Shown here in pieces: positions 12,573-29,146 of a DNA stretch of 29,146 nt. Location: positions 1 through 29,146 of IMG/VR virus record IMGVR_UViG_3300030329_003236, one strand, 5' to 3'. The notes below the pieces were generated by a model. That model did no database searches. It was not told the origin of the DNA and saw only the letters and a program-made list of their open reading frames with translations. The number at the start of each line of letters is the position of its first letter. Position 1 is the stretch's first letter. Source of the DNA: a virus. The position numbers and the translations under genes were made by a program.

Positions 12573-13894
12573 AAATATTAATGACCATGTATCAGATACA
12601 AGATTATGGTGGGATTATCAACCATGTTGAAAACCTAACACAAGGTTTCCAAGAAGCAGGACACGTAGTAGATATAGTTATGTTGTGTCCTAAGCATAAG
12701 GCAATCAGCGTAACTTCTAAGCGTGACGATTGGCAGATTAACCCTAAAGGCACTGGCTATAGATACAACCAAGCCAGAGGGTGGTCAGGCATACCTAAAG
12801 TACCTTACCTTGATGATGCACGTAGGGAACAGTTTAGGCAGCAAACATTAGAGTATGATGCAGTAATATGGCATATCCCTGTGCCTACGTTAAACAAAGA
12901 CAACAAGGGGGTAACCCAGTGGGAGGAACTTTATCACCCACGGGCTAACCACTTTGGCATAATACATGATGGCAACTTTCCTCAACTGTATCCTCACCTA
13001 AACCATGTTAAAGAATTTTTTAAGGGTTTGATCTGCGTACATGAGGCTGCTTACTACTCAACACTCAAAACAGGTATAGACATTCCCTCTACAATGATTG
13101 TCAACCCTTTTGATTTGTCAGAGTGGCAAAAAGACCCAGAAGCGTATGCCCCATTGGACTGGAAAGACCGCAATGGTTTTGTGTCAGTACAGGTGTTTAA
13201 GGGTTGGAAGCGTGTCGACTCTTTGATACGTGCAATACCAAGAATGCAAAACAACGAGAAAAAGATAGTGGGCGGTGCAGGTATTGAGTACCGCTACATG
13301 ACCAGTTATGACAAGTGCAAGGATAAATATAAAGAGCCAGATGGCACACGTATTTGGGACAATGCTATTCGTTTTGACATGGACTATGTTGGGGTCATAC
13401 CTACCCCTACTTTTTATAATTATTTGAAAGAAGCAAAGCTACAGATTGACCCAAGTTGGTCGAAAAAGTATTCACAGTATGGAGCGCATTTTAATCGCAC
13501 CACTGTAGAAGCGATGATATGTGGGGCTGTGCCAGTTGCCACAGATTTAGGCATGATAGACAGTTTAGTTTTTCAAGCAGGTAGCAACTTCTTTCAGTTA
13601 GAGCATGACGCACAACCCGCAAATTACGCACACTGCATCGACTACTGGTTAAGTCATGAGGCTAGAGTACAATGGCGCACCATTCGCGAAAACAACATGG
13701 CTAACATTATTCCGCACTTTGGTCTTAACAAGGTAATCCCTGCTTACGAAAACTATATCAAACACGGAGAGTCCAACCATGCTTTTTCAAGGCAAACGCA
13801 TTTGAGATACAGAAGGGAAGACTATGACAGTGATGCTTACGTTAATTTATTGCAAGCCAGTGATAAAAACCTACAATTCTTTGGGATAAGGTAA
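12569..13894 (+). CDS. GT-B fold glycosyltransferase, candidate DNA-base glycosyltransferase
   Basis: The protein has the plan of a family 4-like retaining glycosyltransferase: an N-terminal GGIINHVENLTQGF loop (14-27) in the acceptor-side Rossmann domain, a middle VNPFDLSEW linker, a second domain starting near FVSVQVFKGWKRVDSLI, and a C-terminal sugar-nucleotide block with the EAMICGAVPVATDLG pattern (about 313-327) that carries the conserved Glu. Its start codon is in an ATGA overlap with the hypermodification gene before it, and its stop overlaps the start of the thymidylate synthase-like gene. The context suggests it transfers a sugar to a modified pyrimidine in phage DNA. Without context it could also act on a cell-surface or virion glycan, so the DNA substrate is inference while the fold is fairly sure. 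Confidence 0.88.
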   Translation: MKILMTMYQIQDYGGIINHVENLTQGFQEAGHVVDIVMLCPKHKAISVTSKRDDWQINPKGTGYRYNQARGWSGIPKVPYLDDARREQFRQQTLEYDAVIWHIPVPTLNKDNKGVTQWEELYHPRANHFGIIHDGNFPQLYPHLNHVKEFFKGLICVHEAAYYSTLKTGIDIPSTMIVNPFDLSEWQKDPEAYAPLDWKDRNGFVSVQVFKGWKRVDSLIRAIPRMQNNEKKIVGGAGIEYRYMTSYDKCKDKYKEPDGTRIWDNAIRFDMDYVGVIPTPTFYNYLKEAKLQIDPSWSKKYSQYGAHFNRTTVEAMICGAVPVATDLGMIDSLVFQAGSNFFQLEHDAQPANYAHCIDYWLSHEARVQWRTIRENNMANIIPHFGLNKVIPAYENYIKHGESNHAFSRQTHLRYRREDYDSDAYVNLLQASDKNLQFFGIR

Positions 13895-15443: not shown

Positions 15444-17328
15444 ATGGGTAATGCCTGATGGTTATCCAGACCTAGCAGGTTACCGTGAGGTAGCCATAGA
15501 CTTAGAAACCAAAGACCCTAACTTAATTACAATGGGGTCAGGTTGGGCAAGAAAAGATGGACACGTTATTGGTATCGCAGTAGCAGTAGAAGGCCGTAGT
15601 TGGTACTTTCCTATCCGGCATGAACTTGGTAGTAATTTTGACCCCAAGCTGACTTATAAATGGTTAGCTGATGTGGTTTCTGTTGACAGAGATTATATTT
15701 TCCACAATGCACCTTATGATGTGGGTTGGTTACGAGCCGAAGGTGTAGAAGTCAAAGGGCGTGTGGTAGACACAATGGTTTGCGCTCCTTTGTTAAATGA
15801 AAACCGTTTTTCGTATTCGTTAAATGCGTTAAGTAAAGATTATCTACAGGAAAACAAATCAGAGCGCGGGTTACGTGAAGCAGCAGAAACTTTTGGTGTC
15901 AATCCTAAAAGTGAGATGTACAAGTTACCTGCCCAACACGTCGGCCAATATGCCGAGCAAGATGCAAACCTTACTTTACGGTTATGGCAACAGTTCAAGG
16001 GTTTAATTGTAAAAGAAGATGTAAGCAGTGTGTTTGACTTAGAAACAAAAGTCTTACGTACAATAATTGATATGCGTACTCAAGGAGTGCGTGTTGACTT
16101 AGAAACAGCAGAAGAAGTCAAGCGTGGGTTGGAACTCAAAGAAGACCAGTTGTTGTTTGAGATTAAAAAGCGGTCTGGCATTGATGTTGAAATATGGGCT
16201 GCTGAAAGCGTGGCAAAGGTTTTTGATTCATTAGGTTTGGGTTACAAAAAGACAGAAAAAACACAAGCACCAAGTTTCACCAAAAACTTTTTGAAGAATC
16301 ATAAAGACCCAGTGGCACAGATGGTAGTTAGGGCGCGAGAGTTTAACAAGGCTCGGACTACTTTTATTGACACCATACTCAAACACCAAGTCAACGGTAG
16401 AATACACGCAGAGTTACACCCGTTACGTAGTGAGCTTGGTGGTACGGTAACTGGTCGGTTTAGTTACAGTAATCCTAACTTGCAGCAGATACCTGCACGT
16501 CATGGTGAGATTGGCCCAATGATTCGCAGCTTGTTTCTACCCGAGGAGGGTTGTGAATGGGGTGCTTTTGATTACAGCAGTCAAGAGCCACGCATTGTCG
16601 TGCATTATGCAAAGCTCATGGGGTTTGACGGTGCTAGTGAGTTTGCTGCTGAGTACAACAAAGACCCGCGCACAGACTTTCATCAAATGGCAGCAGACAT
16701 CGTGGGTGTGCCTCGTAAACAGGCTAAAGATATTAACTTGGGTTTGTTCTATGGGATGGGCAGTAATAAGTTAGCTGAAACACTTGGTTTAGAATTAGAC
16801 GAAGCCAAAGAACTCTTTGCGGTGTATCACGGTAAAGTGCCTTTTGTTAAGGAGCTTGCTGACTACACGGTAAACAGAGCAGCACGTAAAGGAGTTATAA
16901 GAACTTTGCTAGGGCGTAAGTGCAGGTTTGACCAATGGGAACCTGCCAAGTATGGCATATGGAGGCCTCAAAGCTATCAGGACGCATTCAACGAACACGG
17001 TGCTAGTATTAAACGTGCGTTTACTTATAAGGCTCTGAACAAGCTCGTACAGGGCAGTGCAGCCGATCAAACGAAGGCCGCTATGGTAGCACTGTGGGAA
17101 GAGGGCATAACCCCCATGATACAGGTACATGATGAGTTGGATGTTTCCGTAGAGAGTGAGGCACAAGCCAAGCGTATTACTGAACTCATGCAAGACTGTG
17201 TAAGTCTAGAAGTTCCCTCTATTATTGATGCGGAGTTCGGGCCAAACTGGGGACAGGCTAAACAAACTTTTTCTGACAAGCCGTGGACAAGAGGCTTACG
17301 GGACAATCACAGTGAAATGCAAGTGTAG
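15412..17328 (+). CDS. polA: DNA polymerase I-type (family A) with 3'-5' exonuclease, Leu at the 762 position
   Basis: This is the replicative polymerase of the phage. The proofreading domain has Exo I DLE (Asp30, Glu32), Exo II HNAPYD (Asn99, Asp103) and Exo III YAEQD (Tyr180, Asp184). The polymerase domain has GTVTGRFSYSNPNLQQIP, motif A DYSSQEPR (Asp387), motif B with Arg435, Lys439, Leu443, Tyr447 and Gly448, and motif C QVHDELD (His573, Asp574, Glu575). There is no 5'-3' exonuclease domain; 638 residues fits phage-type enzymes. Leu443 stands where E. coli Pol I has Phe762 and T7 has Tyr526. In viral metagenome literature this Leu variant has been linked to slower, more accurate synthesis and possibly a temperate lifestyle. 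The ATG is preceded by AAGGAAG and lies inside the previous gene. Confidence 0.95.
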   Translation: MQIPLIQPQTEWVMPDGYPDLAGYREVAIDLETKDPNLITMGSGWARKDGHVIGIAVAVEGRSWYFPIRHELGSNFDPKLTYKWLADVVSVDRDYIFHNAPYDVGWLRAEGVEVKGRVVDTMVCAPLLNENRFSYSLNALSKDYLQENKSERGLREAAETFGVNPKSEMYKLPAQHVGQYAEQDANLTLRLWQQFKGLIVKEDVSSVFDLETKVLRTIIDMRTQGVRVDLETAEEVKRGLELKEDQLLFEIKKRSGIDVEIWAAESVAKVFDSLGLGYKKTEKTQAPSFTKNFLKNHKDPVAQMVVRAREFNKARTTFIDTILKHQVNGRIHAELHPLRSELGGTVTGRFSYSNPNLQQIPARHGEIGPMIRSLFLPEEGCEWGAFDYSSQEPRIVVHYAKLMGFDGASEFAAEYNKDPRTDFHQMAADIVGVPRKQAKDINLGLFYGMGSNKLAETLGLELDEAKELFAVYHGKVPFVKELADYTVNRAARKGVIRTLLGRKCRFDQWEPAKYGIWRPQSYQDAFNEHGASIKRAFTYKALNKLVQGSAADQTKAAMVALWEEGITPMIQVHDELDVSVESEAQAKRITELMQDCVSLEVPSIIDAEFGPNWGQAKQTFSDKPWTRGLRDNHSEMQV

Positions 17329-17899: not shown

Positions 17900-18083
17900 G
17901 AACAAAATTACAATCACATTTACTGAGCAACAGGCACTTTGCTTGATGACTGCTGCTAGTCAAGTAATGGATCATGGGGATGTGGTAGAAAATAACTTTC
18001 CAGAGCGCGGTGAAAGGAGAGCCGCCTACAATGCTTACAACAAACTGCAAGATGAATACTTTAAGCAAAGAGGAGAACGATGA
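17892..18083 (+). CDS. Small hypothetical protein (63 aa) before the endolysin
   Basis: Three in-frame ATGs lie at 17883, 17886 and 17892 behind GAGGAG (17876-17881); 17892 gives a workable 10-base spacing and the natural-looking start MSKNKITITF. The protein begins with a beta-like segment (ITITFTEQQA), has a helix with LCLMTAASQVM and a polar, Arg/Glu-rich end. I do not recognise it. Its TGA stop lies in the ATGATG at the start of the endolysin, so the two are probably translated together. Confidence 0.7.
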   Translation: MSKNKITITFTEQQALCLMTAASQVMDHGDVVENNFPERGERRAAYNAYNKLQDEYFKQRGER

Positions 18084-18700
18084 TGAAAGAGAACTTTGAA
18101 AAAGCATTGGCTCTCGTGTTGAAGCACGAGGGAGGTTTTGTAAATCACCCCCAAGATCCGGGAGGTGCAACCAACAAGGGCATCACACTACGGGTGTACG
18201 AAGATTTTATACAAGACGTCGTAGATTCTTCTGCGTTAGTAACCGAAGAAGACCTAAAAAATATCCCTGATGACGATGTGGCAGAGATATACAAGACACG
18301 ATACTGGGATAAAATCATGGGTGACGATTTGCCAGACGGCATAGATTTTGCTCTGTTTGACTTTGCCGTAAACTCAGGACCGGCACGAGCAGTCAAAGAG
18401 CTACAGAAAATATTCTTTGAATGTAAGACAGATGGAATCATGGGACCAATTACTCTTAAAAAAGTATTTGACCCTGACAACTTAATGGCGCACCAGAAAA
18501 TAAAAATTCAAGAAGGAACGCATACACTAGAGCAGTTTAAGCAAGAGGAAACGCAACTCCTAATCGAAAGATTGATGGAAAACAGGAGGAAGTTTATTAA
18601 GACACTCAAGCACTACGATCATTTTAGTAGGGGATGGGAAGCTCGGTGTAACACAACAGAGAAAGAAGCTACCCTCTTGTGTGAAAACATCAACAGTTAG
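18083..18700 (+). CDS. Endolysin, glycoside hydrolase family 108 muramidase
   Basis: Lysis enzyme that cuts peptidoglycan. The N-terminal catalytic domain has KHEGGFVNHPQDPGGATNKG; the Glu of EGGF is the known catalytic residue of GH108 N-acetylmuramidases, and PGGATNKGIT is the following conserved loop. The middle has the RYWDKIMGDDLPDGIDFALFD block and then the usual C-terminal peptidoglycan-binding part (DFAVNSGPARAVKELQ, DGIMGPITL). At about 205 residues it has normal length. No signal peptide is present, so a holin or pinholin would be needed; none is obvious next to it. ATGs at 18080 and 18083 are both possible; AGGAG at 18071-18075 fits the second better. The preceding gene overlaps it. 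Confidence 0.92.
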   Translation: MKENFEKALALVLKHEGGFVNHPQDPGGATNKGITLRVYEDFIQDVVDSSALVTEEDLKNIPDDDVAEIYKTRYWDKIMGDDLPDGIDFALFDFAVNSGPARAVKELQKIFFECKTDGIMGPITLKKVFDPDNLMAHQKIKIQEGTHTLEQFKQEETQLLIERLMENRRKFIKTLKHYDHFSRGWEARCNTTEKEATLLCENINS

Positions 18701-18970: not shown

Positions 18971-19531
18971 ATGAAAACACCACAAGTCCCTCACGGGGTT
19001 ATTGATGCAGTTAGCGGTGAAGAAATCACAACACCGTTAGGTGTGCCAAGAAACTACGAACCCAATCCTTACGAGGACAAAAGTAAAACAGAAGCCCAAC
19101 AAGACGCGATCTTCTTGGCTACGCTCGGTGAGTTTAGCGGTAGCGATATACCACCCAAGCGACATTTTTGCGTAACTCCCAAGCTAGGTATGTTGTTACT
19201 TTCCGAAGGCGCAGATTACTTGCGTAACTACGGTGGTCAAGGTAACGGCTGTCACTGGCTGTTTGACATCTTCGTTACTGAAATTTTCCCTTTGTTTAAA
19301 AAGTACCCCGATGAAGATATGTTCATCATTACTATTACTGTTAAAAACAACCAAGCGTCTCTTTCTGCAAGGGCTAAAAGTGAAGCGAAGATATGGTCTC
19401 GTCACATAGGTTTTACCGACCTTATTGACATGGATTTTTATCTGTGGATGTTACGTGGTGATAGTGTTGCGCCCGAGCTAGCTCCGGGATTACCTGCATA
19501 CGGACACGTACTTATACCCAAAGAATACTAA
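18971..19531 (+). CDS. Hypothetical phage protein, possibly DUF6876-like (186 aa)
   Basis: This gene has one of the strongest ribosome sites of the window (CTCAAAGAAAGGAG, identical over 14 bases to that of the hypermodification gene at 11484), so high expression is likely. The first 50 residues are polar and Pro-rich. The core has LLSEGADYLRNYGGQGNGCHWLFDIFVTEIFPLF and a DLIDMDFYLWM stretch. The YGG...WLFDI pattern reminds me of DUF6876, a small family of unknown function; this is a weak call. It has no membrane segment and no catalytic motif. Confidence 0.8.
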   Translation: MKTPQVPHGVIDAVSGEEITTPLGVPRNYEPNPYEDKSKTEAQQDAIFLATLGEFSGSDIPPKRHFCVTPKLGMLLLSEGADYLRNYGGQGNGCHWLFDIFVTEIFPLFKKYPDEDMFIITITVKNNQASLSARAKSEAKIWSRHIGFTDLIDMDFYLWMLRGDSVAPELAPGLPAYGHVLIPKEY

Positions 19532-19532
19532 A

Positions 19533-19586
19533 ATGCTTTGGATTGTAGTGTTTTATTTGCTGCTTGTTCTTTTACTGTGGAGATAA
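19533..19586 (+). CDS. 17-residue hydrophobic micropeptide, copy 1 (candidate)
   Basis: The open frame codes MLWIVVFYLLLVLLLWR and stops at TAA. It has an almost purely hydrophobic core with one terminal Arg: a short membrane-spanning or membrane-inserting peptide. It fits exactly between the preceding stop (19531) and the next start (19591). CAAAGAA, part of the ribosome-site box used by other genes, lies 9 bases upstream, but no GGAG follows. A second frame at 27573-27626 codes a peptide of the same length with 9 of 17 identical positions and conservative changes at the rest. This is the main reason to believe it is real. Confidence 0.5.
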   Translation: MLWIVVFYLLLVLLLWR

Positions 19587-19590
19587 CAAA

Positions 19591-19851
19591 ATGAATTCCT
19601 CTATTACTAGATACTTGGTAGAACACGATGACTACCCCGATGGTTTGTATGTTGTAGTGGAGGAATCTCCCCCCGAGCCAGACGTAGGATGTTTCGGAGA
19701 TGGTAAAACGTCAATCAGCGTAGAGCAAGTGTTCAAAGGGGATGGGTACGGTAGTCCTACAAATGAGGAGATAACAGGTGATCTTTCTCCTGACGAAATA
19801 GACAGCATTGCTCATAAAATTTATGCACAGATAGGAGACAGATATGGCTAA
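19591..19851 (+). CDS. Hypothetical acidic protein (86 aa)
   Basis: The ATG at 19591 follows GGAG (19579-19582) at 8 bases; the frame is open 27 bases further up from a TTG, but that part overlaps the hydrophobic micropeptide frame and is less likely. The protein is acidic, with Pro/Gly-rich loops (EESPPEPDVGCFGDG) and a helical end (PDEIDSIAHKIYAQIG). It overlaps the following nuclease gene by 8 bases. No family recognised. Confidence 0.78.
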   Translation: MNSSITRYLVEHDDYPDGLYVVVEESPPEPDVGCFGDGKTSISVEQVFKGDGYGSPTNEEITGDLSPDEIDSIAHKIYAQIGDRYG

Positions 19852-21181: not shown

Positions 21182-21342
21182 CTTCTGTAAATGGTGCGAC
21201 GCGTAAAACCGTCGCGCCTTTTTACATCCCCTGACACACCCTTCTCAACTTTTTTTATCGTATTACCTTTGGCAAGATAATCCTGTATTTGTTGGGCTAA
21301 GAGTTCTGTCTGTTTATCTTTCTGTTTATCTTTTAGTTTCAT
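21178..21342 (-). CDS. Small basic protein (54 aa) coupled to the lipase gene
   Basis: This 55-codon frame starts at an ATG in an ATGA overlap with the lipase stop and ends at a TAA that overlaps the stop of the converging DUF3846 gene. It codes MKLKDKQKDKQTELLAQQIQ, then a DYLAKGNTIKKVEKG block and a basic end (KRRDGFTRRTIYRS). The 'I..yLakGn.I.kv..G' pattern is common in short phage proteins of unknown function. The coupling and the exact fit between two stops support a real gene. Its 3' part also forms the terminator stem of the opposite operon, which constrains its codons. Confidence 0.72.
   Translation of the reverse strand: MKLKDKQKDKQTELLAQQIQDYLAKGNTIKKVEKGVSGDVKRRDGFTRRTIYRS
21193..21223 (+). 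terminator. Rho-independent terminator of the long plus operon
   Basis: GGTGCGACG (21193-21201) pairs with CGTCGCGCC (21210-21218) with one G-U pair, 8-base loop, followed by five T. It lies within the coding sequence of the small minus-strand gene 21178-21342. Confidence 0.85.
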
Positions 21343-22031
21343 TTTTTGTGTAGACTTTCTATGTAATCAAACAATCTTTGTTCGTATTCTGGCATGAAAT
21401 GATCAGAGATTGCTTCTTTAGCCTTGCTCATAAAGTCTTTCTTTTTAAACTCTGGGTCTGGGTCTATTACATCCTCACCACTGTTAGCATGATACAACAT
21501 GGTTTGGCTGACAGATGGCCCATAACAAAGGCGAGGAATGCGGGAAACTAGATCACTCCCTGCCACTACGGAGATCTGGCCTGTTAAATCCATTGGCTTT
21601 TTGAATCCTTTAAAAAATGTGTTCGGCTTACCGAATGTGACCAAGCTCATCTGTTTATGTTTGCCGTTGAGTTTAGCGGCTGTGAGTTCAGCTAGTGCGC
21701 CTCCTAGACTGTGACCTGTGATGAGCAGTTTTTTGTCATAGTCAATGTGCTTTTTGATTTTACCCCATACTGAAGAGTGCGCTGCCACAAAACCCCCATG
21801 ACACAACCTACCCGCATAAGGAAAAGGAATGGCACTGATGTTAAACAACCAGTCACGTATCTGCTGAGTACCTCTAAAGCAAATGATGTCTATGGTTTTT
21901 GTCTGTACGAAGAAGGCCGTTGTTGAGGTGAGCTTAGATTCTATTTTAGTTCCGTTCTTTATCTTTTCGTTGTAGGCTTGGTTAGAATATTTACATCCGG
22001 TCTCTAATAAAAGCCTTTGCACATCAGCCAT
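21339..22031 (-). CDS. Class 3 lipase-like alpha/beta hydrolase (230 aa)
   Basis: Carboxyl-ester hydrolase of the lipase class 3 family. It has the oxyanion-side CFRGTQQIRDWLFNI block (51-65), the nucleophile elbow GHSLGG with Ser108, TFGKPNTFF after it, the acid Asp160 in AGSDLVSRIP, and the base His181 in MLYHANSG, so the Ser-Asp-His triad is complete. No signal peptide or membrane anchor is seen, so it is a cytoplasmic or virion protein. A lipase is not a usual phage core gene; it sits as a separate minus-strand unit between two plus operons with its own promoter region and an ATGA-coupled small gene, like an accessory cassette. It could act on host membrane lipids or storage esters, possibly in lysis. 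Ribosome site AAAGGGG. Confidence 0.92.
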   Translation of the reverse strand: MADVQRLLLETGCKYSNQAYNEKIKNGTKIESKLTSTTAFFVQTKTIDIICFRGTQQIRDWLFNISAIPFPYAGRLCHGGFVAAHSSVWGKIKKHIDYDKKLLITGHSLGGALAELTAAKLNGKHKQMSLVTFGKPNTFFKGFKKPMDLTGQISVVAGSDLVSRIPRLCYGPSVSQTMLYHANSGEDVIDPDPEFKKKDFMSKAKEAISDHFMPEYEQRLFDYIESLHKK

Positions 22032-24125: not shown

Positions 24126-24663
24126 AGTAAGGGCGCTCCTCGGGGTAATCTTTTCCGGGACTGGTTTCTACAACACACACAAGTTTTTCATCACCCCATG
24201 CGCCTCCGGCCATAAGGTAATTGTCATCACCTTCACCTGTGGCAGGATTTACACCGTCTGTTGGGCCATAACCCATCTGGTGCTTTTTCAACTTGGCAAC
24301 ATCCCGTTCCCAAGCGTCTCCGTTTTTAATAGCCTGACTAATACGGTCTGCAATGGCTTGCGCGGACAGGCGGGAGTCAACGGTTATGATGTGGTGTCTA
24401 AACTCACCGTAATCATAAAACCAACCGCCCTCCTCAGGTCCACCATAAGCACGACCACAGGCATACATATTCACATAAAACTTTTCTTCAACTGGGATTT
24501 TTAGAGTAAAAATATCACCTTCTACCCATTCGTCCCACCCCTCTCGCCAATCAGATTCATTGTATGCTGTCCACTTTTCTGAGCGATCACGGTTTATTTC
24601 TTCAAGCACTTGTTCCAATGACCAATCGCAAATCTTCCCTGTTTTAATATCTTTTACTTTCAT
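24118..24663 (-). CDS. Conserved hypothetical phage protein (181 aa)
   Basis: The start at 24663 is chosen because it forms ATGA with the stop of the small membrane protein upstream; the frame is open 30 bases further (GTG 24693), which is less likely. The chain begins MKVKDIKTGKICDWSLEQVL, has a Trp-rich acidic part (ESDWREGWDEWVEGD), a strand-rich middle with YGGPEEGGWFYDYGEFRH, and a Gly/Asp-rich end. No domain I can name. Confidence 0.8.
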   Translation of the reverse strand: MKVKDIKTGKICDWSLEQVLEEINRDRSEKWTAYNESDWREGWDEWVEGDIFTLKIPVEEKFYVNMYACGRAYGGPEEGGWFYDYGEFRHHIITVDSRLSAQAIADRISQAIKNGDAWERDVAKLKKHQMGYGPTDGVNPATGEGDDNYLMAGGAWGDEKLVCVVETSPGKDYPEERPYYE

Positions 24664-24758
24664 GGCAAATACCATCCCACCCACACACTCCACAGCAGGT
24701 AAACTCCTATAATCATTACAAAAACAAACGATATTGCTTCTTTAATAAAATGTTTCAT
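24660..24758 (-). CDS. Single-pass membrane mini-protein (32 aa), possible pinholin/holin-like
   Basis: A GAGGG site 4 bases before the ATG, then MKHFIKEAISFVFVMIIGVY followed by LLWSVWVGWYLP. One continuous hydrophobic helix of about 22 residues, with positive charges only at the N-terminus. The stop is in an ATGA overlap with the next gene. A small membrane protein could serve as a holin component for the endolysin, but it lies on the other strand and 6 kb away; a toxin-like or superinfection role is equally possible. Confidence 0.65.
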   Translation of the reverse strand: MKHFIKEAISFVFVMIIGVYLLWSVWVGWYLP

Positions 24759-26369: not shown

Positions 26370-26906
26370 ATGCCGTTAGCCAAACAAACACATAAGAACA
26401 GCCTTGAAGTCGTAGCTAACCCACGTACTGAAAAGAAAATCACACCAAAGCAAGAAGAGTTCGTACGCATATATTGTTGTGAGGACGTAAGCCAAACCGA
26501 AGCGGCTGTTCGTGCAGGTTACTCAAAAAAGTCTGCCCATGCCATAGCATCACAACTACTAAATGGGTCACATTATCCCCACGTAGTCACCCGCATACAC
26601 GAGGTTAAAAAAGAACTAGCCCAGAAATATGAGGTTACGTTTGAGGGCCACGTTAAAAAACTCGCTGAAATCAGGGACTTAGCGTTAGAGGACGGGTCGT
26701 ACGCTGCTGCGGTAGCTGCTGAAAAGAACCGTGGTCAGGCTGCGGGTTTGTATATTGACCGTAAAGAAATCCTGCATGGGAAAATAGACACCATGAGCAA
26801 AGAAGAAGTCTTAAATGAAATCAAGAAGTTGCAAGAGGAATACCCTGCTTTAGCTGCGGTTAGTCAAGGCAACGTACTCATTGAAGGCGAAGTTGAAGAA
26901 GCCTGA
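26370..26906 (+). CDS. terS: Terminase small subunit (TerS)
   Basis: The protein recognises phage DNA for packaging. It has the Terminase_2-type N-terminal core, TPKQEEFVRIYCCEDVSQTE followed by AAVRAGYSKKSAHAIASQLL, in which the helix-turn-helix (SQTEAAVRAGYS) contacts DNA. A long helical oligomerisation part follows and the end is acidic. Length 178 residues is normal. The start lies 12 bases after a -10 box with no ribosome site, so the transcript may be almost leaderless. The nuclease gene starts within its last codons. The large subunit lies 1.7 kb downstream rather than directly next to it, which is unusual. Confidence 0.92.
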   Translation: MPLAKQTHKNSLEVVANPRTEKKITPKQEEFVRIYCCEDVSQTEAAVRAGYSKKSAHAIASQLLNGSHYPHVVTRIHEVKKELAQKYEVTFEGHVKKLAEIRDLALEDGSYAAAVAAEKNRGQAAGLYIDRKEILHGKIDTMSKEEVLNEIKKLQEEYPALAAVSQGNVLIEGEVEEA

Positions 26907-27516: not shown

Positions 27517-27572
27517 GCACCAGAAAATATCTAATGCTAACTCTTTTGCGCTCGCTGCCGTAAAGTTTAACC

Positions 27573-27626
27573 ATGCTTATGGTAATTGCTTTTTATATTT
27601 TACTGGTTCTGATACTGTATAAATAA
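27573..27626 (+). CDS. 17-residue hydrophobic micropeptide, copy 2 (candidate)
   Basis: The frame codes MLMVIAFYILLVLILYK and stops at TAA. It matches the micropeptide at 19533-19586 in length, in the core FY-x-LLVL and in the final basic residue: 9 identical positions (1, 2, 7, 8, 10-13, 15) and conservative changes elsewhere. No clear ribosome site is present. It lies in an otherwise non-coding segment. The codons differ enough between copies that protein-level conservation, rather than recent DNA duplication, is suggested. Confidence 0.45.
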   Translation: MLMVIAFYILLVLILYK

Positions 27627-27629
27627 CCA

Positions 27630-27691
27630 GTGTTATTTGTTACACTTTAACACAATTTAACACTTAAAATGCTTGTGTTAATAAGTGTTAC
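27630..27691. promoter_or_regulatory. Symmetric TAACAC/GTGTTA operator array
   Basis: Within 61 bases are GTGTTA (27630), TTACAC (27640), TAACAC (27648), TAACAC (27658), GTGTTA (27675) and GTGTTA (27685). The last four form TAACAC-N4-TAACAC-N11-GTGTTA-N4-GTGTTA, a two-fold symmetric set with 10-bp spacing in each half. It lies 48 bases before the gene at 27739 and looks like a multi-dimer operator. Confidence 0.55.
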
Positions 27692-27738: not shown

Positions 27739-28314
27739 ATGGTTAAAGCAAAAAACGTAGCAGCTAACACTACTAAAACAGTTAGCAAAACCGTAAAAAT
27801 AGCAAACCTAAATAGTGGTGCTGTTTATACATTACCTAGCAATGGCCAAGCCACCGGTGCAAGTATAGCTAACTTTATAGCTAACAATGCTGCCGGCAGT
27901 TTGGCTAATGTTACAGTGCAACTAACCGCGTTTGCTAAAAGCTTAGGCATTACGCCTAGCAATTGGGTTAAACACAACAGCGGTATGTTTTGCACTAACA
28001 CTGGTACGCGTGGCCACCAGTTACAGTGCGCCATGTTTGGCGTACAAGTTAGCACCATTAGCAGCAACAAAAGCAAAGCATTTAAAAAAATGCAATTGGC
28101 TAGTGTTGGTGGCAATGGTGCAAGCAATAACTTAGGGCATATTGCTGCCGCCATTACTGCTAGTGGTGGCAAAATTGTTACTGGCAACATAGCAAGCGGT
28201 AACACACTTTGTATGCTGCTAACTGGTACTAATACAGTAGGCAATAAAAAGCATACGTTTTATGGTAAGCCACTAGTGCAATTAGTGGTAACACCGGCAG
28301 TAAAAACTAAGTAG
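27739..28314 (+). CDS. Asn/Ala/Gly/Ser/Thr-rich protein of unknown function (191 aa), moron-like single-gene unit
   Basis: The ATG follows an AGGTAAAACATT leader. More than half the residues are Ala, Asn, Gly, Ser or Thr; the N-terminus is Lys-rich (MVKAKNVAANTTKTVSKTVK), and near the middle is a polar stretch with KHNSGMFCTNTGTRGHQLQC that carries two of its Cys residues. No signal peptide, membrane helix or known catalytic motif. Serine is coded largely by AGC and the base use differs from neighbours. It sits between terminase subunits with its own operator-like array upstream and a strong terminator downstream, which is how phage morons (independently expressed accessory genes) look. DNA-binding, virion-decoration or anti-host functions are all open. 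Confidence 0.82.
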   Translation: MVKAKNVAANTTKTVSKTVKIANLNSGAVYTLPSNGQATGASIANFIANNAAGSLANVTVQLTAFAKSLGITPSNWVKHNSGMFCTNTGTRGHQLQCAMFGVQVSTISSNKSKAFKKMQLASVGGNGASNNLGHIAAAITASGGKIVTGNIASGNTLCMLLTGTNTVGNKKHTFYGKPLVQLVVTPAVKTK

Positions 28315-28608: not shown

Positions 28609-29146
28609 ATGACCCCTGATCAAATATTGACCATTCCAGAAGAGAGGCTAAAGAATTACGCTTCTTTGTTAGACAGAGCAAACACGTTACAAAAGGCCGA
28701 GAAAGCCCGTCAAGGGTTTATGGACTTTGTGCAGTTGGCGTGGCCTGAGTTCATTAATGGCCGTCACCATAAAATAATGGCAGAGAAGTTTGATAAGTTG
28801 GCAAATGGCGAGATAAAGCGGTTGATTGTCAATATGCCGCCCCGCCATACTAAAAGTGAGTTTGCCAGTTATATGCTCCCCGCATGGATGATGGGCCGTA
28901 ACCCTACGTTAAAGATTATGCAGACAACGCACACAGCGGAACTGGCATTCAGGTTTGGCCGTAAGGTACGTAACCTGATGAACAGTGATGAATACAAAAG
29001 GATATTTGAGGGTGTAAATTTGCGAGCCGACAGCCAAGCAGCGGGGCGTTGGGAGACTTCCGGTGGTGGTGAGTATTTTGCGGCAGGTGTGGGCGGTGCG
29101 GTAACGGGCCGTGGTGCAGACCTTTTGATAATTGACGATCCCCACT
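28609..29146 (+). CDS. terL: Terminase large subunit (TerL), N-terminal ATPase part; 3' end cut by the window
   Basis: This is the packaging motor. The visible 179 residues hold the ATPase core: an adenine-side FINGRHHKIMAEKF block (48-61), the Walker A-like MPPRHTKS (76-83), THTAELAFRFGRKVRNLM, a GGAVTGRGAD loop and Walker B LLIIDDPH (172-179) at the edge. The phage-type PPR-x-x-K-S P-loop fits the large-terminase family. The nuclease domain and stop lie beyond the window. The start ATG at 28609 is the first possible after the in-frame stop at 28582. The gene presumably leads the structural block that ends at the left side of this window if the map is circular. Confidence 0.93.
   Translation, partial: MTPDQILTIPEERLKNYASLLDRANTLQKAEKARQGFMDFVQLAWPEFINGRHHKIMAEKFDKLANGEIKRLIVNMPPRHTKSEFASYMLPAWMMGRNPTLKIMQTTHTAELAFRFGRKVRNLMNSDEYKRIFEGVNLRADSQAAGRWETSGGGEYFAAGVGGAVTGRGADLLIIDDPH

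Follow-up and report, generated by a model that had tools for sequence, protein, structure and literature searches.

Two frames of 17 codons (A and B; Table 1), found in a fragment (29 kb) of a tailed marine phage, are almost certainly genes, and their products, which on comparison of their residues form a single paralogous family, are very likely membrane peptides. The fragment (hereafter 'the window', meaning the whole stretch of 29,146 nucleotides that was analysed) has its nearest named phages in 023Pt_psg01, DSL-LC04 and the pelagiphages HTVC027P and HTVC023P, with which it shares 51-55% identity in the DNA polymerase and 58-67% in the terminase; a search of GTDB genomes for a host returned only a distant Clostridia polymerase. 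An initial annotation of the same DNA had proposed that the two frames represent a real family of micropeptides, and that proposal is supported by purifying selection specific to the coding frame, by conservation of the frames at their genomic sites and by an independent pair of peptides in HTVC023P.

Both frames and their translations were reproduced exactly, and the two peptides are identical at 9 of 17 residues. Among the 213 short frames of the window (counted on both strands as ATG frames of 12-25 codons; just 15 of them are in gaps), the A/B pair reaches a BLOSUM62 score of 55, against 20 for the second-best pair of equal length. The frequency of such pairs in shuffled sequence had been named beforehand as a possible ground for doubt; in 200 dinucleotide shuffles of the window the best pair per shuffle averaged 25 and never exceeded 40, which bore out no such doubt. 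Permuting the residues of one peptide gave p ~5e-6 for the positional score, which indicates that the match lies in the order of the residues, beyond their hydrophobic composition.

Table 1. Coordinates of A, B and associated features (window positions, except for the HTVC023P pair).
Feature	Position	Strand	Basis or remark
GH108 endolysin	18080..18700	+	PF05838 E 3e-28, PHROG 315 endolysin
DUF6876 protein, 186 aa, upstream partner of A	18971..19531	+	Pfam PF21781 E 3e-7
Micropeptide A, 17 aa, MLWIVVFYLLLVLLLWR	19533..19586	+	predicted single hydrophobic helix, basic C-terminus
Shine-Dalgarno-like GGAGAT of the 86-aa gene, within the final codons of A	19579..19584	+	sequence; putative function
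86-aa protein, downstream of A	19591..19851	+	ORF
Terminase small subunit (anchors the synteny of site B)	26370..26906	+	PF03592, PHROG 51
9-codon frame (M/V)LTLxxSLP-stop, just 5' of B	27534..27563	+	kept in L048, L049, L053, L056; shorter in L002
Micropeptide B, 17 aa, MLMVIAFYILLVLILYK	27573..27626	+	exact translation, site-conserved in relatives
Pair of overlapping inverted repeats (9 bp each) that separates B from the 191-aa gene	27647..27690	+	sequence
191-aa protein, always between B and TerL in the clade	27739..28314	+	synteny
Terminase large subunit (TerL), N-terminal part, synteny anchor	28609..29145	+	PHROG 4758/38
Single-helix membrane peptide pair (predicted) of HTVC023P (L090)	12922-13008; 16000-16083		3 kb apart

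Counterparts of A were found in three other IMG/VR contigs (L002, L003 and L017, the last two using a GTG start and L017 having a peptide that begins MIWAILF) and clear counterparts of B in nine (L048, L049, L053, L056, L002, L051, L052, L092 and L093). The nearest contig, L002 (87% identity in the polymerase), has both an A peptide (MLWVIVVYLLLLIFLWKP) and a B peptide (MLLIAVYICLIIILYK) at the respective sites, and another contig, entered as both L003 and L092, likewise carries the two peptides, with MIWVILFYLLLVVLALKRKG at A and MGIAIAFYIVLILLYI at B. Broken frames had been anticipated as one way in which relatives might speak against the family; the relatives preserve the start and the stop of A and B at their respective sites. 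A comparison of synonymous with nonsynonymous change over phylogenetically independent pairs gave a pN/pS of 0.39 in the coding frame (p 4e-6; of 94.3 synonymous sites 34.7 had changed, and of 319.7 nonsynonymous sites 46.3). The two alternative frames gave 0.94 and 3.39 (p 0.51 and 1.0). These values are based on small site counts because the genes are small, and kinship among the contigs limits their independence. The ratio was 0.29 at site A (about 0.3 per pair), where synonymous sites are nearly saturated, and 0.44 at site B (independent pairs). Across a ten-sequence alignment of A and B, which displays an FY motif, Y8 and L11 are invariant, and such position-specific residues suggest a specific helix face, beyond mere hydrophobicity. 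Frame-specific selection, saturated synonymous sites and retained residues are together what gives the two frames the pattern of a gene.

Wider searches of IMG/VR were less productive. A profile search with the A/B alignment returned 116 pattern stretches, none of which was confirmed (the query is probably too short for tblastn), and the DNA pattern IAFYI-x-LV returned 48 stretches, with no comparable standalone short frame beyond the known members of the clade. A profile search with the DUF6876 protein found no new full-length neighbour of A, the other matches having in common only the first 28 residues and lacking the micropeptide. That N-terminus (MKTPQ..HGV...EITTPLGLPR) is shared with otherwise unrelated phage proteins (L047, L179-L182 and L184), and looks like a mobile N-terminal module.

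The initial annotation had assigned both frames to gaps between genes. This is correct for B, which is truly intergenic (in a gap of 423 bases), but not for A, which, with 1 base separating it from the preceding gene (stop at 19531) and 4 bases from the following one (ATG at 19591), forms part of a tight operon. The stop codon of the DUF6876 gene precedes the start of A by 1 nt in the window, and overlaps it as TAATG in L002. For the 86-aa protein encoded downstream of A, no Pfam or PHROG family was found.

Frame B is flanked by a nuclease/helicase-like gene on its 5' side and by the gene of the 191-aa protein on its 3' side, and it lies 1 kb ahead of TerL. No Shine-Dalgarno sequence is recognisable ahead of B in its window-type form, and a promoter scan gave no signal above shuffle level. 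The last 13 bases of B are invariant as DNA (ATACTGTATAAAT, in five aligned sequences), and in view of this its conservation may be partly regulatory. The 9-codon frame in front of B is possibly a leader, or possibly the remnant of a longer transmembrane peptide found upstream in L051, L052 and L092, while the inverted repeats behind B could conceivably serve as an operator or hairpin. The 191-aa protein has a confident AlphaFold model (pLDDT 81), for which Foldseek found no match in the PDB or in a viral structure library; L048, L049, L052, L053 and L092 additionally have an inverted relative upstream.

Using the 191-aa gene upstream of the terminase as an anchor, site B was surveyed across the wider clade for a strong hydrophobic stretch within 500 bases upstream. 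A hydrophobic ATG mini-ORF occupies the site in 22 of 31 genomes, against 1.1 expected from dinucleotide shuffles, the 31 including near-duplicates and so representing fewer independent cases. The more distant peptides differ in sequence (for example MVFVICLIVVCLLAMFYDYS, MFYILIFLIIGIAMWQLYNSFNKS and MWILIVIIVILGCLTLFWVS) and give no convincing alignment; they may reflect extreme divergence or replacement by unrelated peptides, and the 22 may mix homologues with replacements. L051, L052 and L092 encode a second peptide, 32-35 residues long and starting with MRQ, which has a GGGAG ribosome site in front of it and whose end falls on the start of B or just past it (L114 and L054 have a similar tandem); its basic N-terminus predicts a topology opposite to that of B. 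Proteins of 53-54 aa with two helices are encoded near site B in L095, L122 and L123. In HTVC027P, gp34, which lies near site B and is early-middle in RNA-seq (PMC12753301), does not encode a membrane peptide, and for that reason its timing is not transferable to B.

The cultured pelagiphage HTVC023P, a distant relative, possesses a homologous pair of its own (28 and 29 aa; MDKFIAFIFRAVIFYPFIAIIILSLLAFL and MMHLIAFIFRAAVFYPLTVILILSLLFI), under purifying selection (pN/pS 0.38, p 4e-4). As with A and B, there are two homologous single-helix peptides in the genome, each directly preceding another gene; they differ in being longer and in having an internal Arg and an FYP motif. The pair is the same kind of object, without clear homology to A and B. 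The expectation that standard annotation would miss such frames is supported, and the HTVC023P peptides are both absent from that phage's annotation table.

From the features that can be read directly (the frames, their conservation as proteins and at their sites, their helix-like composition and their charge pattern), we infer translation, membrane insertion, a topology and a docking or modulating action. The N-terminal half is uncharged in all 20 of 20 peptides and the C-terminal half has a basic residue in 13 of 20, a distribution that predicts an N-out/C-in helix. On the favoured explanation, A and B would be paralogues whose translation yields minimal membrane peptides of one helix. Each peptide would insert in the inner membrane of the host, the uncharged N-terminus facing out and the basic C-terminus facing in, and would then dock on a membrane protein complex of the host (or of the phage) and modulate it in the course of infection. 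A would be produced from the operon that follows the DNA polymerase, its translation being coupled to that of the DUF6876 gene, and B would be expressed from a unit ahead of the 191-aa protein and the terminase; two production sites would allow dose or timing to be spread. The initial annotation had named a membrane-enzyme modulator and a superinfection factor among its suggestions; the former is the reading preferred here, and the latter is conceivable as well. Comparable proteins are CydX, KdpF, MgtR and AcrZ, bacterial regulatory membrane proteins of about 29-49 aa with known partners, which A and B resemble in their one short helix and, putatively, in docking on a membrane complex, and from which they differ in being shorter (16-20 aa). 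A modulator is preferred to a depolariser by analogy, and the explanation as a whole has about an even chance of being correct. In L051, L052, L092, L114 and L054, B begins within or directly against the end of a further small membrane peptide, and the start of A overlaps or abuts the upstream stop, arrangements that may be likened to those of co-translated membrane complexes. Counting against this explanation, a helix of 17 residues is short for a full membrane span, window-type B shows no recognisable Shine-Dalgarno sequence, its conservation may be partly regulatory, and the distant site-B peptides may include replacements.

A broader and rather improbable version of it would see paired minimal helices (16-20 aa) as a dedicated system of marine phages related to the HTVC023P type, with one copy coupled to genes behind the polymerase and one ahead of the packaging region, joined in some relatives to a second overlapping helix of opposite topology: a bipartite device for remodelling a host membrane complex, which different lineages would have reconstructed at this one site from unrelated sequences.

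A different action in the same membrane is conceivable, namely that of an Ibs/ShoB-like depolariser, many copies of which would collapse the proton gradient and so exclude a second phage or hasten the shut-off of the host. IbsC (a 19-aa helix that is toxic via depolarisation, and active even at 15 aa) and ShoB (26 aa) are E. coli type I toxins consisting of a single hydrophobic helix, and most type I toxins have a C-terminus that is predicted to be cytosolic and contains basic residues (PMC8309996). A and B, as short hydrophobic helices, belong to the size class of IbsC (15-30 aa) and share this predicted layout of the C-terminus. They differ, however, in their phage origin, their operon context, their FY-LLV pattern and their presence at two phage sites. 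The window contains no Rfam match, and thus no known antitoxin RNA, and promoter-like sites on the opposite strand do not exceed shuffle level. Since A belongs to a closely packed operon and has its own translation coupling, which sets it apart from a free-standing toxin gene, and since the FY-LLV residues vary less than one would expect if depolarisation were all that they served, a toxin of this type is considered unlikely.

A function in lysis had been put forward by the initial annotation in the form of a minimal holin or pinholin. As the main lysis function, this was rejected: a GTA-type holin (PF11351, E 6.5e-18; PHROG 3427 'holin') is encoded separately by the two contigs that carry both A and B, that of L002 (L050/L094) and that of L003 (L092/L174), as well as by the genome of L049, in each case in the late region, and A is not located beside the endolysin gene. 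(The window stops within the terminase gene, short of the late region, so that relatives had to supply the evidence.) Like A and B, that holin is a phage-encoded membrane protein of the same genomes; in contrast to them, it comprises 133 aa and three helices, and it has no similarity to either peptide. A and B are thus probably not the phage's holin. They might still act as an accessory lysis factor, such as an antiholin or a pinholin-like partner adjusting when the GTA-type holin acts, as could be argued from their nature as phage membrane helices, from the endolysin gene 0.8 kb upstream of A, and from the tandem peptides of opposite predicted topology at site B and the nearby two-helix proteins of 53-54 aa. 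Against that stand the holin already present in the late region of the same genomes and the position of the peptides, neither of which adjoins holin or endolysin: two genes separate A from the GH108 endolysin gene, and B, which is grouped with the terminase genes, is 9 kb away from it. An accessory role is accordingly quite unlikely.

Equally unlikely is a purely regulatory role, in which the act of translation, rather than its product, controls the next gene (that of the 86-aa protein after A and of the 191-aa protein after B). The location of the next gene's Shine-Dalgarno sequence in the final codons of A would suit such coupling, as would the position of B, which occupies the 5' region of the 191-aa gene, is followed by inverted repeats and ends in 13 invariant bases, and the fact that both HTVC023P peptides also immediately precede a gene. 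Coupling, however, needs no amino-acid conservation, yet nonsynonymous change is selected against; nor is there the codon conservation of a leader, since the synonymous sites are saturated and the residues nevertheless retained (the exception being the final 13 bases of B). In addition, the genes downstream of A vary among L002, L003 and the window, whereas the peptide stays. Finally, the notion that A and B are functionless hydrophobic frames that converged in T-rich gaps retains almost no probability, for although T-rich DNA readily encodes hydrophobic residues and the nested hydrophobic frames of L095, L100 and L104 may be such by-products, it is contradicted by the shuffles, the residue permutation, the frame-specific selection and the conservation of the sites.

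Several other small hydrophobic frames were met in the course of the analysis. The nested frames just mentioned (18-20 aa; L100 3579-3641, L095 2680-2736 and L104 8253-8315) lie out of frame and begin 16-19 nt past the start of a soluble gene, and could be either genuine nested genes or a by-product of Asn/Asp/Ser codons. A conserved protein of 45 aa with one C-terminal membrane helix is encoded in L003 (14353-14490) and L002 (11620-11757, minus strand); in the window, a class 3 lipase gene (21339-22031) takes its place, and the 45-aa protein was not seen there. The window also contains, on the minus strand at 24660-24758, a frame of 32 aa with a strong membrane helix (MKHFIKEAISFVFVMIIGVYLLWSVWVGWYLP), and in L111 (4681-4740) and L112 (3690-3749) a short hydrophobic frame, MTLFFCFVFLILFISLFFK, directly precedes a gene and has GAGGAA after its stop.

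No convincing match to Pfam, PHROG or NCBIfam models was obtained among the members long enough to scan (at least 20 aa), and a search of named phages with a 20-aa relative of A found none. On these grounds, A and B are regarded as a new family (relative to those collections and to the named phages) of a kind that is already known, that of small phage membrane proteins with a single helix. Fremin, Bhatt and Kyrpides reportedly described novel families of small phage genes in 2022, many of them functionally uncharacterised, which A and B resemble in being tiny and missed by standard annotation. Small phage genes are a known class (PMC11323111, citing Fremin, Bhatt and Kyrpides 2022), and the A/B family falls at its very short end and is duplicated within the genome.

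What emerges is a set of phage genes of only 16-20 codons, backed by frame-specific selection and present twice per genome, whose carriers are marine phages distantly related to the abundant pelagiphages of the HTVC023P type. Comparative tests can recognise hydrophobic genes of fewer than 20 codons, which current annotation drops, and the culturable HTVC023P-Pelagibacter system, with a peptide pair of its own, makes the function of such helices testable.
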